Below, in pieces: positions 1 to 63,381 of a DNA stretch of 64,000 bases (position 1 is its first letter; each line of letters starts with the position of its first letter). The notes beneath the pieces are model-generated. The model saw only the letters and a program-made list of their open reading frames with translations. It made no database searches and was not told where the DNA came from. Made by a program: the position numbers and the translations under genes. Source of the stretch: Tabrizicola sp. TH137 (GTDB taxonomy: Bacteria; Pseudomonadota; Alphaproteobacteria; Rhodobacterales; Rhodobacteraceae). The stretch is taken from contig NZ_PKRQ01000004.1 in the NCBI RefSeq assembly GCF_002855575.1, forward strand, positions 248,001-312,000, written 5' to 3'.

Positions 1-581
1 AGAACGTGGACGGCTCCACCGGCTACTACTCCATCGGCTTCGCCCGCGCCGACTCTGGCATCACCTCCATCGAAGATGCCAAGGGCAAGGTCTTCGCCTT
101 CGCCGACCCGAACTCCACCTCCGGATATCTGGTGCCGGGCGCGGAACTGATCGCAACCTATGGCCCGCTGGAGGACTACTTCGCCGAAGTGAAGATGTCG
201 GGCGGCCATGAACAGTCCATCGTCGGCGTCCATAACGGCGACTTCGACGCCGCCGTGTCCTGGGCCGATGGCCTGGGCAACTGGGAAGACGGCTACAATT
301 CGGGCGCCTTCCGCCGCGCCGCCGATGCGGGCCTCGTGGACATGAACAACCTCGTCGAAATCTGGCGCTCCAAGATGATCCCCGAAGGCCCGATGGTCAT
401 CCGCTCGGCCCTGCCGCAGGACGTGAAGGACAAGGTCACCCAGCTCACCGCCGACCTGTGGGAAACCGATCCGGAATGCGCCTACAACGTCGCCGCCGGC
501 GATGCGAAGGATTTCGTCCCGGTGGACATCTCCGCCTATGAAGGCGTGCTCGCCGCGCGCAAGCTTCAGGAAGGCATGTAA
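1..581 (+). CDS. phnD: PhnD phosphonate ABC transporter substrate-binding protein (3' part)
   Basis: This is the C-terminal ~193 residues of a periplasmic phosphonate-binding protein. The reading frame is open at the left edge, so the start and signal peptide lie outside the window. Visible family features are the segment TGYYSIGFARADSGI, the FADPNSTSGYLVPGAEL block typical of the PhnD/PBP2 ligand-binding lobe, and GGHEQSIVGVHNGDFDAA, which resembles the phosphonate/phosphite-binding helix region. It is followed at once by a strong hairpin plus T-run and then two phnE permease genes, the usual phnCDEE order. phnC would be expected just upstream, outside the window. Identification is firm from motifs and context; the ligand range (alkylphosphonate or 2-aminoethylphosphonate) cannot be told. 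Confidence 0.95.
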   Translation, partial: NVDGSTGYYSIGFARADSGITSIEDAKGKVFAFADPNSTSGYLVPGAELIATYGPLEDYFAEVKMSGGHEQSIVGVHNGDFDAAVSWADGLGNWEDGYNSGAFRRAADAGLVDMNNLVEIWRSKMIPEGPMVIRSALPQDVKDKVTQLTADLWETDPECAYNVAAGDAKDFVPVDISAYEGVLAARKLQEGM

Positions 582-61151: not shown

Positions 61152-62083
61152 CCGAGGAGGCGGCGGATCACTGTGTCGGCGCGGGCGAGGTGGCTTTGGT
61201 GGATGGGATCGTCGGGCGCGAGGCGCGGGATCGTCCAGCCGACCGAGGCGAGGATGCGGGCCAGCGTGAAAAGTTCCACCTTTTCCGTATCTTGCGTCCC
61301 GTATCCGGCCATCAGCGCGTCGCGGAGGGCGTCGCGGGCGGGTTCGTACTGGTTCTGGGACAGGACCGTGCCCAGATCGTAGAGGCGGAAGCCGAAACCG
61401 CTGTCGTCGAAGTCGATGAGGGCGATATCCCCTTGGGATAAAAGCACATTTTCGCGCAGGACATCAGCGTGGATCAGGCCGAAATCGCCGTTTTCGGCGG
61501 CATGGGCCGTCATCATCGACTGTACCGCATTCCGTGCCGCAAACTGTGCAGAAAGTTGTGGCCACGCAGCGAACGGATGTTCCCAGAACCGGCCCCAGAG
61601 CGGGTTCTCTCCGACCAGCCCTTCAATATCCCATCGCGGGCGTTGGAAATCCGGCGGGAGGGAGAGCCCGTCGCTGGCCCGGTGCAGGCGGAGGAGCAGT
61701 TGCCCGAGGCGGAAGTGAAGGTCGATCTGGGCGGGGACGGGCTGCGGCAAGGGTTGGCCGGCCCTGCCGATCGGGTCGCCCTCCAGCCAGCGGATGGCAG
61801 AGGCGTGGCGGGTGGAGGAGAGTTGGGCCAGCAGCCCGCCATCGGGCAGAGGCAGCGGCGTGGGGACCGGAAGGCCGAGCGCGGCGAGTTCGGCGCACCA
61901 CCAGAGTTCCGAGCGGATCGCGGCTGCGTCCTGATAGCCGGGCCGATGCAGGCGCAGGGCGGCGCGGCGGCCATCCGGCAGGGTCATTTCGTAAACGGCG
62001 TTCTCGCGGGCGACGATCAGCCGACGGATCGTGCCGCGCCAGAGGGCGGCGGCCTCCTGCGCGTCGGGGCCGGGGTCAGTCAT
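61148..62083 (-). CDS. Phosphotransferase (APH/choline-kinase-like) family protein
   Basis: A 311-residue kinase-fold protein. The catalytic loop is [14 protein letters not shown], and the metal Asp is in [20 protein letters not shown]. The N-lobe has [20 protein letters not shown]. It likely phosphorylates a small alcohol or amino-alcohol, such as homoserine or a sugar; not determinable. Codons around residues 170-185 overlap a copy of a dispersed GTGGCCAC/GCGGCAC repeat. Its start overlaps the arfB stop by eight bases. Confidence 0.87.
61528..61571. repeat. GTGGCCAC / GCGGCACA repeat, copy 3 (inverted, inside a gene)
   Basis: Read on the minus strand it gives CGCTGCGTGGCCACAACTTT then CTGCACAGTTTGCGGCACGG. 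The order and 12-bp period match copies at 44971 and 45087. Here it encodes part of the kinase ([16 protein letters not shown]). Confidence 0.65.
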
Positions 62084-62501
62084 CCTCGCCCTCGACTCGA
62101 CCGCGCAGCGATTTCACCTCGCCGCGGACGGATTTCGCGGCGAGACGGCGGCGCTGGCTGCCGAGGGTGGGCTTGGTCGCGATGCGGCGCTTCGGGGCGA
62201 CGAGGGCCTGACGGATGAGGTCGGCGAGACGGTCGCGCGCAATCTCGCGGTTGCGGGCCTGACTGCGGGTTTCATCGACCTGAAGGACAATCGCGCCCTC
62301 TGTTGTCCAGCGCCGCCCGGCGAGACGTTTCAGCCGGGCCTTCACCGGGGCGGGCAGGTGGGGGGAACGCTCTGCCTCGAAGCGGAGTTCGACGGCGGTG
62401 GAGACCTTGTTCACATTCTGCCCGCCGGGGCCGGAGGCGCGCACGAACTGTTCGGAAAGTTCCCAATCGGCGATGGAGATGGTGTCGGTGATGCGCAGCA
62501 T
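62076..62501 (-). CDS. arfB: ArfB, alternative ribosome-rescue peptidyl-tRNA hydrolase
   Basis: A 141-residue rescue factor. The catalytic GGQ is at residues 26-28 (SGPGGQNVNKVST). The basic C-terminal tail that enters the empty mRNA channel is KPTLGSQRRRLAAKSVRGEV. It releases peptides from ribosomes stalled without a stop codon. Start at 62501 (MLRITDTISI). The ~250-bp upstream region holds a hairpin and a mini-ORF with a perfect Shine-Dalgarno, suggesting leader control. Confidence 0.94.
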   Translation of the reverse strand: MLRITDTISIADWELSEQFVRASGPGGQNVNKVSTAVELRFEAERSPHLPAPVKARLKRLAGRRWTTEGAIVLQVDETRSQARNREIARDRLADLIRQALVAPKRRIATKPTLGSQRRRLAAKSVRGEVKSLRGRVEGEDD

Positions 62502-62531: not shown

Positions 62532-62560
62532 GAAAGGGTCGCCTGGACGGCGACCCTTTC
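62532..62560. terminator. Strong hairpin in the arfB leader
   Basis: A perfect 12-bp stem GAAAGGGTCGCC/GGCGACCCTTTC with a 5-nt loop, 31 bases before the arfB start on the minus strand. On the minus strand it is followed by TCTTATG, a short T-containing stretch. It could terminate upstream transcripts (from the mini-ORF or transporter gene) or act as an attenuator for arfB. Confidence 0.65.
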
Positions 62561-62616
62561 CGAGATCCAAGGAGATGGGCCAGTTAGGTTTCAAGCCCAA
62601 TCAGGTAGACTGTCGA

Positions 62617-62634
62617 CTGAGGGGCTGCCCTCAG
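62617..62634. promoter_or_regulatory. Small hairpin at the mini-ORF stop codon
   Basis: CTGAGGG (62617-62623) pairs perfectly with CCCTCAG (62628-62634), with a 4-nt loop. On the minus strand the TGA of the mini-ORF (62633-62631) lies in its first arm. A ribosome ending there would keep it open. Confidence 0.5.
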
Positions 62635-62687
62635 AAAACGATCCTCCTGACTGTCCCGACACCTCTCTCCAATGTAGCTCTAGACAC
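62631..62687 (-). CDS. Putative 18-residue leader peptide with perfect extended Shine-Dalgarno
   Basis: On the minus strand AAAGGAGGTGATCCA (62702-62688) is followed directly by GTG (62687) and an 18-codon frame, MSRATLERGVGTVRRIVF, ending TGA. The 15-base segment is exactly complementary to the 3' end of 16S rRNA, far longer than other ribosome-binding sites here, and AGGAGG is seven bases from GTG. No family recognised. It precedes arfB by 130 bases and could be a ribosome-sensing leader or part of a small RNA. Whether it is translated is unknown. Confidence 0.4.
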   Translation of the reverse strand: MSRATLERGVGTVRRIVF

Positions 62688-62757
62688 TGGATCACCTCCT
62701 TTCAATGGGTTTCAGATAGGGGGAGGGTGACACAGATTTTGTGTTCGTCAACAGATT

Positions 62758-63381
62758 TCACGCAACCCTTGCCGTGAATCGGTGGATCGCAAAGCGAAAC
62801 GGCAACAATGCGAGCAGATCGACGGCGATCTTCACCAACCAGTCCGCAAAGCCCAGCGAAACCCAGAAAGGAACCTCTGGCCCGAAGCCCAGAAGGGCGG
62901 TCGGCTGCGCGGCCCAGGACACGTCATTGCCGGGTTCCAGAAGGGTGAGCGTGGTGGAGAAGGCGATGGAGAAGAAGATCGCCGTGTCGAGCGAGGAGCC
63001 GACGAAGGTGGAGATGAAGGGGGCCTGCCACCAGGCGCGGGCGCGGAGCCGGTCGAAGATCATCACGTCGATGAGCTGCGCGGTCAGGAAGGCGATGCCG
63101 GAGCCCAGCGCAACGCGCATCGTCACCAGAGGGCCGTATTCGCCGATGATCTGGGTGCCGATGGCCGAGCAGGCCAGGCCGGTGGCAAAGCCGGCATAGA
63201 CCACGCGGCGGGCGGCGGCGGCGCCTTCCAGCCGGTTGACGATGTCGGAGACGAGGAAGGCCAGCGGATAGGTGAAGGCACCCCAGGTAAGCCAGGTGCC
63301 GATGGGATACTGGACAAGGATGTTGGAGGCCACGACGACGATGGTCATGGCGAGGACGCCAAAGAGCGAGATGCGGGTCAT
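62758..63381 (-). CDS. Queuosine precursor transporter (YhhQ/VUT family)
   Basis: A 207-residue membrane protein with about six helices. VVVASNILVQYPIGTWLTWG, AFTYPLAFLVSDIVNRLEGA and GSGIAFLTAQLIDVMIFDRL are VUT marks, as is FISTFVGSSLDTAIFFSIAF. E. coli YhhQ imports preQ0/preQ1. I looked at the 88-bp upstream gap and see no clear preQ1 riboswitch. Confidence 0.92.
   Translation of the reverse strand: MTRISLFGVLAMTIVVVASNILVQYPIGTWLTWGAFTYPLAFLVSDIVNRLEGAAAARRVVYAGFATGLACSAIGTQIIGEYGPLVTMRVALGSGIAFLTAQLIDVMIFDRLRARAWWQAPFISTFVGSSLDTAIFFSIAFSTTLTLLEPGNDVSWAAQPTALLGFGPEVPFWVSLGFADWLVKIAVDLLALLPFRFAIHRFTARVA

Follow-up and report, generated by a model that had tools for sequence, protein, structure and literature searches.

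A small RNA of Alphaproteobacteria with a short, very probably translated frame behind a Shine-Dalgarno sequence complementary to the 16S tail, and its possible gating by ribosomes

Why should a ribosome-binding site of affinity far above the ordinary precede a frame of only 18 codons? The question is raised by an element on the minus strand of Tabrizicola sp. TH137 DNA, at positions 62532–62757 of the window (the whole stretch of 64,000 nucleotides analysed here), between qpt and the ribosome-rescue gene arfB. The original prediction saw in it a ribosome-sensing leader of arfB, with a plus-strand small RNA as the alternative. Overall, the data point further: the comparisons suggest an autonomous small-RNA gene, some 170 nt in length, which is more than a leader of arfB. 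Our preferred reading, to which we give a probability of about 0.5, is that of an autonomous, translated small RNA acting as a ribosome-gated switch, the gating being what we infer. The gene is present in nearly every sampled genome of the host's family and in many alphaproteobacterial orders, and has so far figured as a Caulobacter small RNA in Rfam and, probably, as one small protein of Sinorhizobium.

The Shine-Dalgarno (SD) sequence was searched for as AAAGGAGGTGATCCA, which occurs at 62688–62702 (minus strand) and at no other place in the 4.66 Mb assembly with at most one mismatch (reversed control, 0). Together with the flanking G it forms the 15-mer GAAAGGAGGTGATCC, the complement of GGATCACCTCCTTTC. 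The predicted match to the 16S 3' end is thus borne out, and it covers the whole single-stranded tail of the 16S rRNA of relatives. A 52-base 16S 3'-end query ending in CTGGATCACCTCCTTTC matched 229 plasmid records, 209 of them at ≥99% identity and many alphaproteobacterial; all of the 25 rows listed match over the full query, with Rhodobacter, Paracoccus, Cereibacter, Azospirillum and Sulfitobacter among them. In the genomes themselves the 16S pattern was seen in 0 of 21, a set that included the host and complete assemblies, which suggests that rRNA is unassembled in or withheld from them. The duplex of the SD with the 16S tail was calculated at −26.8 kcal/mol, versus −11.6 kcal/mol for AAGGAGGU. 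SDs are sparse in the class, and in Caulobacter 24.6% of the coding sequences carry one (PMC4117421). The remaining structural claims of the original prediction also held: an 18-codon frame (GTG TCT AGA ... TTC TGA, 62687–62631, 18 codons and stop) ending in a hairpin at 62617–62634, a second hairpin of 12 bp at 62532–62560, separated from arfB by 30 bases, and the identity of arfB itself (NF006718, 186.5 bits).

The spread of the element was assessed in the family of the host (198 genomes, of which 174 are good assemblies) and in the class. With a covariance model made from 80 relatives the element was found in 180 of the 198 family genomes at E ≤ 0.01, and in 158 of the 174 good assemblies; 18 genomes were missed. 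The same model matched 147 of 149 good genomes of an order sample, where those listed all belong to the host's family; the two samples overlap, and the model's own sequences were among those searched. A DNA search of the 198 family genomes matched 183 at E ≤ 1, with roughly 150 at E ∼2e-5 or better among the matches listed. Class-wide, the 20-base core AAAGGAGGTGATCCARTGTC was present with at most one mismatch in 69 of 385 genomes (reversed control, 0), and an exact core scan of named genomes yielded at least 119 stretches, including Acetobacteraceae, Hyphomicrobiales, Rhodospirillales, Azospirillum, Bradyrhizobium, Hyphomonadaceae and Stella. Among the titles of 80 of these 119 loci, two name groups outside the class (Solirubrobacterales and Opitutaceae), probably through misbinning, and another reads Rhodovulum. 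Plasmid records, when compared with the element by similarity, gave no match. One family genome (G185) holds two strong model matches (C19:171010-171208, E 4.9e-44; C41:15045-15214, E 6.6e-36); most listed genomes hold one. All 151 distinct family loci entered the synteny counts; four with more than four SD mismatches were omitted from the SD, frame and codon tests, two of them probably mislocated by the search (L049, L302) and two with small spacer indels (L266, L300). Among the family elements with at most three SD mismatches a terminator was called in 143, of which 80 make up the alignment and model; the codon tests were confined to the 134 elements whose frame has exactly 18 codons, and the swap test to 114 of the 143.

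Over 147 family loci, SD positions 1–10 (15-mer counted from 0) are nearly invariant. This conservation is an upper bound, because the loci came from a pattern search (at most two mismatches) or from DNA similarity and were thus partly retrieved via the SD core. Position 11 has the consensus A in 90 loci, G in 47 (preserving a G-U pair with the 16S rRNA) and C or T in 10, and 11 of 11 changes at positions 13–14 preserve the pairing with 16S, replacements that helices 1 and 2 (see below) may favour as well. The outermost G is lost in 16 loci. The base preceding the 15-mer is random, and so the 16S similarity ends at the tail; with this boundary and the recurrence of the element through the class, a decayed 16S fragment was ruled out. 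The class-wide set was chosen by the SD itself and is uninformative on its conservation.

The frame behind the SD is under selection for openness and, in the family, for a fixed stop. Exactly 18 codons, with the stop at codon 19, were found in 134 of the 147 family elements (TGA 61, TAG 49, TAA 24). TGG was seen at codon 19 in none, versus 22 expected under free A/G mixing at both positions. An inner stop interrupts 3 of the 147 frames, versus 68 and 70 for the other two frames and 89 after shuffling. For selection on the amino acids the values are mixed: pN/pS over codons 2–18 was 0.84 in frame versus 0.73 and 0.74 out of frame, over codons 10–18 it was 0.96 versus 0.71 and 0.76, and over codons 2–13 (see below) it was lower in frame than out (n = 134). 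In the class-wide set 140 of 141 frames have 14–35 codons, and the peptides, which span 14–56 residues across lineages, are unlike one another between lineages. By these evolutionary criteria, and very probably also by published ribosome profiling of the Sinorhizobium relative described below, the frame is very probably translated. The peptide appears to be weakly selected at most and is probably not the product that matters. Since the length of the frame is kept more strictly than the peptide, the element probably responds to ribosomes and is not a maker of a useful protein; even without gating by ribosomes it would be an example of a short frame held more for its length than for its peptide. 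One subgroup of peptides (L112, L131, L137, L160, L161, L023, L086) begins with MSS, VSS or MSN and has in common, close to the end, an EQP motif (GAGCAGCC in DNA), which is perhaps a further RNA helix.

In the alignment of 80 sequences, helix 1, which joins the SD core to a downstream C[AG][UC]CUCC, is paired in 98.9% of the cells, and helix 2, the start-codon hairpin, in 97.5%. A short helix between the frame and the 3' part is paired in 95.6% of the cells with two-sided changes at 3 of 4 pairs, and the terminator stem in 97.1% with two-sided changes at 9 of 11 pairs. For the whole fold the value was 97.4%, versus 94.3% with the 3' letters shuffled and 37–60% for slid versions, and cells changed on both sides numbered 71 versus 20 in the control. 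The copy of the anti-SD (C[AG][CT]CTCC) was present in 116 of the 143 family elements; its counterpart in the window, CAUCUCC at 62571–62577, able to pair with the SD core, had been missing from the description in the original prediction. In the swap test, codons 10–15 paired with the stretch after the stop at −16.5 kcal/mol within genomes versus about −13.4 kcal/mol between genomes (better in 102 of 114), and class-wide the start of the frame paired with the pre-terminator stretch at −13.1 versus about −10.4 kcal/mol. A plan shared by family and class-wide set emerges from these predictions, in which the 3' part engages either the initiation region or the beginning of the frame, and each lineage does so in its own way.

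The genes around the element differ with lineage. Of 150 family loci, 137 have qpt upstream. Conservation upstream of arfB, named beforehand as the test on which the original prediction could fail, was found: arfB is the next gene downstream in 120 of 146 loci. However, in 20 family loci the element follows qpt but the stretch examined behind it contains no arfB, which speaks against a leader of arfB only. Two of the 147 loci of the class-wide set contain arfB, in each case upstream and on the opposite strand, and 0 of 147 have it behind the element; the linkage is therefore a family trait, and a leader specific to arfB was ruled out by synteny as the entire explanation. The neighbour invites a link to ribosome rescue, yet that link would hold for the family. 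Signals of independent transcription were frequent. A promoter-like motif (TTGnnn-16..18-[TC]AnnnT) was present in 122 of 147 family loci versus 7.0 in base shuffles, with TTG most often at −47 to −49 relative to the SD, and in 91 of 145 loci of the class set versus 3.8, at a distance of about 48 bases from the SD. Of the 194 elements with enough sequence, 186 have a terminator-like hairpin past the frame, a count taken without shuffled control. Of the original prediction there remain an exceptional, very probably translated ribosome-binding site with a conserved fold, and sensing as the leading idea; the arfB-only leader fell to the synteny, the promoter-like motif of the element's own and the terminator-like hairpin.

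It is nevertheless conceivable that in the family the element additionally attenuates arfB, translation of the 18 codons deciding whether the hairpin at 62532–62560 ends transcription. The two lie on the same strand with arfB usually next, arfB begins at a median of 49 nt past the terminator-like stem (30 in the window, where the T tract is weak), so that leakage into arfB is possible, and the fixed stop sits inside a hairpin. Such attenuation is unlikely, given the family loci in which qpt and the element are present but arfB is missing from the stretch that follows, the class-wide set that keeps the plan of the element with no arfB found behind it, the absence of any run of special codons in the frame, and -10-like letters seen by eye in several of the gaps before arfB.

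Two known entities bear on the element. Rfam family RF01867, the Caulobacter small RNA CC2171, matched the window element at 34.3 bits (E 8e-6), below its cut-off of 75, and 18 of 20 relatives' loci at 28–43 bits (E ≤ 0.1). Landt 2008 is reportedly the defining paper of CC2171. In the class, 96 of 385 genomes matched at E ≤ 0.01, 13 of them above the cut-off, with scores running from 91 bits to the low twenties without a wide gap; of 14 control genomes, Caulobacter vibrioides and Deinobacterium chartae matched, one above the cut-off. The match to the window element is end to end (model 1–159), with 22 identical bases in a row (GAAAGGAGGUGAUCCAGUGUCU) and a shared GC-rich terminal hairpin, in the same class, and the Rfam consensus itself shows the start of the frame and the 16S match. 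In contrast, the consensus helix between the early frame and the pre-terminator stretch is not formed in the window element, where the alignment marks its pairs as non-standard, and which has the SD:cis-anti-SD helix and the start-codon hairpin instead; in the class-wide set the swap test supports a pairing of this kind. The window element is therefore probably a divergent branch of the CC2171 RNA and not a member of RF01867 as curated. An unannotated copy on an Azospirillum lipoferum plasmid scored 69.7 bits; behind it (L320 1180-1341) many microRNA-precursor models match both strands below their cut-offs, presumably on a long perfect inverted repeat. In print, RF01867 appears in a table, as the entry for a predicted RNA of Mesorhizobium, and in a note that the family gained one covarying pair (PMC5596092 and PMC11701678). 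No text on CC2171 and Caulobacter was found among open-licence papers, and the accessible part of the Ruegeria pomeroyi small-RNA tables (PMC4809877) holds nothing assignable to the element.

The second entity is SEP1 of Sinorhizobium meliloti. Record CP090106.1 of this species carries the element with an unannotated frame (CAACGAACAGAAAGGAAGGTGATCCAATGTCT...) and a terminator-like end, and matched RF01867 at 34.0 bits. Its frame encodes 23 residues of pI 4.18, a combination (23 residues and pI below 4.5) found in 0 of 145 class-set peptides; SEP1 is described as having 23 residues and a pI of 4.18 (PMC10117765). With both length and pI in exact agreement, the frame is very probably that of SEP1. 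The S. meliloti copy differs from the window element in its ATG start, an extra SD base, and the lack of arfB and qpt among the annotated adjoining genes. CP090106.1 (L319) is labelled pSymB yet measures 3.7 Mb and is probably a mislabelled chromosome; in strain 2011 pSymB has 1.68 Mb and the chromosome 3.66 Mb (PMC10117765). What is already known, then, is the RNA family by name and, very probably, one of its frames as SEP1, which in the available part of PMC10117765 is treated as a small protein and not as an RNA family. Searches of open-licence papers yielded no text linking the RNA family with SEP1, and no description of the match to the whole 16S tail, of the class-wide spread or of the family form. 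Joined, the two would be a single RNA in which a translated frame follows an SD covering the entire 16S tail, and this in a class sparse in SDs.

These data bear on a further alternative, that the element is a small mRNA for a functional peptide, its strong SD merely giving a high output. The strong selection on the frame fits this, as do related peptides within lineages and a pN/pS over codons 2–13 of 0.64 versus 0.85 and 0.79 out of frame (n = 134), by which a weak constraint on the peptide is possible there. Moreover, the probable relative SEP1 is made: one mass-spectrometric match was obtained, and the tagged form, expressed from a construct that included just 15 nt of upstream sequence, gave a signal in Western blots (PMC10117765). 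A functional peptide is also unlikely, however, since the whole-frame pN/pS does not fall below the out-of-frame values and that of codons 10–18 is still higher, many of the conserved residues coincide with RNA helices, the peptides of different lineages are unlike in sequence and length, and SEP1 is conserved, by protein search, only in Rhizobiaceae (PMC10117765).

As for the preferred reading, the ribosome-gated switch would work as follows. During synthesis the SD would be partly open, and a 30S subunit could bind. Once the 3' part has emerged, an unoccupied RNA would close, the SD paired to the internal anti-SD copy and the start codon held in its hairpin; a loaded ribosome would instead run to the fixed stop and hold the 3' part unpaired. 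The loaded or closed state would then set the stability of the RNA, its action on other RNAs, or how much transcription leaks into the gene that follows. Window transcripts folded at increasing lengths are consistent with this, with 8 of the 15 SD bases unpaired at 60–120 nt and 4 of 15 at ≥150 nt. In the 116 family elements with the anti-SD copy, a median of 3 of the 7 core bases was free before the copy and 0 in the full RNA, and in 113 the core was more open before. If ribosomes do gate the element, it would give direct access to the way in which free ribosomes are sensed by bacteria.

Several results weigh against such a gate. Helices 1 and 2, that is the gate itself, show one-sided changes only, and the two-sided changes lie mostly in the terminator. 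The anti-SD copy was not found in 27 of the 143 family elements and is present in 0 of 123 class-wide elements, where 85 of 123 minimum-energy folds leave most of the SD core unpaired; masking of the SD is therefore a family trait. The opening test is partly circular, since the pairing partner is removed, and before the copy just 39 of the 116 elements have at least 4 of the 7 core bases free. The SD pairs with its cis copy at −14.6 kcal/mol, and opening it in the finished window RNA costs 12.8 kcal/mol, so that at equilibrium the 16S pairing should win over the cis copy; the gating would have to be kinetic, with the 30S subunit loading while the RNA is young, and such a gate may report ribosome availability. 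The SD of the S. meliloti copy has one extra base. SEP1 has the highest translation efficiency among 54 high-confidence candidates (PMC10117765), which speaks for an open and busy RNA and not for a mostly closed one, and the low pN/pS of codons 2–13 leaves some room for the peptide.

An extension of the ribosome-gated switch would make the RNA a gauge of free ribosomes throughout the class, whose family form has both the SD and the anti-SD half. When free 30S subunits are scarce, the RNA would close on itself; with an excess, 30S would occupy the long SD and release the copy (CACCUCC, CAUCUCC or CGCCUCC), which could then mask the SDs of other mRNAs, and ribosome abundance would thereby damp initiation. 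Where a lineage lacks the copy, the pre-terminator stretch, once freed, would act on other targets. We regard this gauge as quite unlikely. Still less likely is a decoy or sponge, in which the SD would hold 30S subunits non-productively or soak up anti-SD small RNAs such as BbsR14 of Bartonella (PMC7717549). The high affinity, the match to exactly the 16S tail and the occurrence of anti-SD small RNAs in the class (PMC7717549) would suit a decoy; however, a decoy needs neither an open frame nor a fixed stop, the high translation efficiency of the probable relative SEP1 is at odds with a non-productive complex, and the match fits the 16S tail and not the TTCCTCCTAA loops of BbsR14. The plus-strand RNA of the original prediction, which would copy the anti-SD and block mRNAs, is hardly credible, because beyond the folding of that strand better than shuffles (z −3.2; minus strand, z −4.7) nothing positive speaks for it, and the promoter motif, open frame and terminator all lie on the minus strand.

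Three systems invite comparison. In hok-type mRNAs the 3' end masks the translation start. The element would resemble them in that its 3' part is proposed to close the initiation site after transcription ends; it differs in that neither a toxin-like peptide nor an antisense RNA was noticed at the element, with no systematic search made for either. The rnTrpL/peTrpL of Sinorhizobium is likewise a small RNA with a short translated frame (PMC10117765), but it is leaderless and tied to trpE, whereas the window element has a hypertrophied SD and a variable downstream gene. The extended-SD small ORFs and STAR elements of Staphylococcus aureus (PMC13009471) are also intergenic short frames recruiting ribosomes; they belong to another phylum, whereas the element described here usually occurs once per genome and has a conserved fold.

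Features of the element and its neighbours in the window, with positions counted from the first base of the window
Feature	Position	Strand	Remarks
-35-like hexamer TTGACG	62746..62751	(-)	48 bases 5' of the SD, six bases past the end of qpt; consensus match
-10-like hexamer CACCCT, weak	62724..62729	(-)	fits the loose promoter motif
GAAAGGAGGTGATCC, SD over the entire single-stranded 16S tail	62689..62703	(-)	predicted duplex with the tail −26.8 kcal/mol
18-codon frame, GTG start, TGA stop, peptide MSRATLERGVGTVRRIVF	62631..62687	(-)	frame and stop position conserved, peptide selection weak or none
Start-codon hairpin, UCCA-UGU with ACA-UUGGA	62668..62691	(-)	helix 2 of the consensus; 97.5% of cells paired, 80 sequences
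7-bp hairpin containing the stop codon	62617..62634	(-)	fold prediction
CAUCUCC, cis anti-SD copy, pairs with the SD core GGAGGUG (62693-62699)	62571..62577	(-)	helix 1; 98.9% of cells paired
Terminator-like hairpin, 12 bp, loop of 5, weak T tract TCTCTTATG	62532..62560	(-)	helix 4; 9/11 pairs with two-sided changes
arfB, neighbour that the element can do without	62076..62501 (ATG at 62501)	(-)	NCBIfam NF006718, 186.5 bits, cut-off 100
qpt, queuosine precursor transporter, upstream neighbour	62758..63381	(-)	TIGR00697, 87.2 bits, cut-off 50.95

At the locus itself, a strict-consensus promoter scan reported no promoter at the element, the 12-bp hairpin was absent from the list of a consensus terminator scan, and a tRNA scan and Rfam at gathering level returned nothing in the 64-kb window; the next-best Rfam matches, isrD and RsaE, had chance-level scores and were rejected. 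Letters like GGGCAGCCC of the stop-codon hairpin recur in many relatives, not in all, and this hairpin lies outside the consensus structure. The best match of qpt among plasmid records was from Pseudorhodobacter turbinis (Rhodobacterales), at 64.4%. Directly after arfB lies an APH-type phosphotransferase gene (PF01636; 61148–62083, minus strand), the start of which overlaps the end of arfB by eight bases. In the class set, 16 of 147 loci have a gene that we take to be YaiI/DUF188-like, downstream in 14; it begins about 180–220 bases past the SD, like arfB in the window's family (L170, from 2620 downwards on the minus strand, L062, L087, L091, L097, L103, L123, L192).
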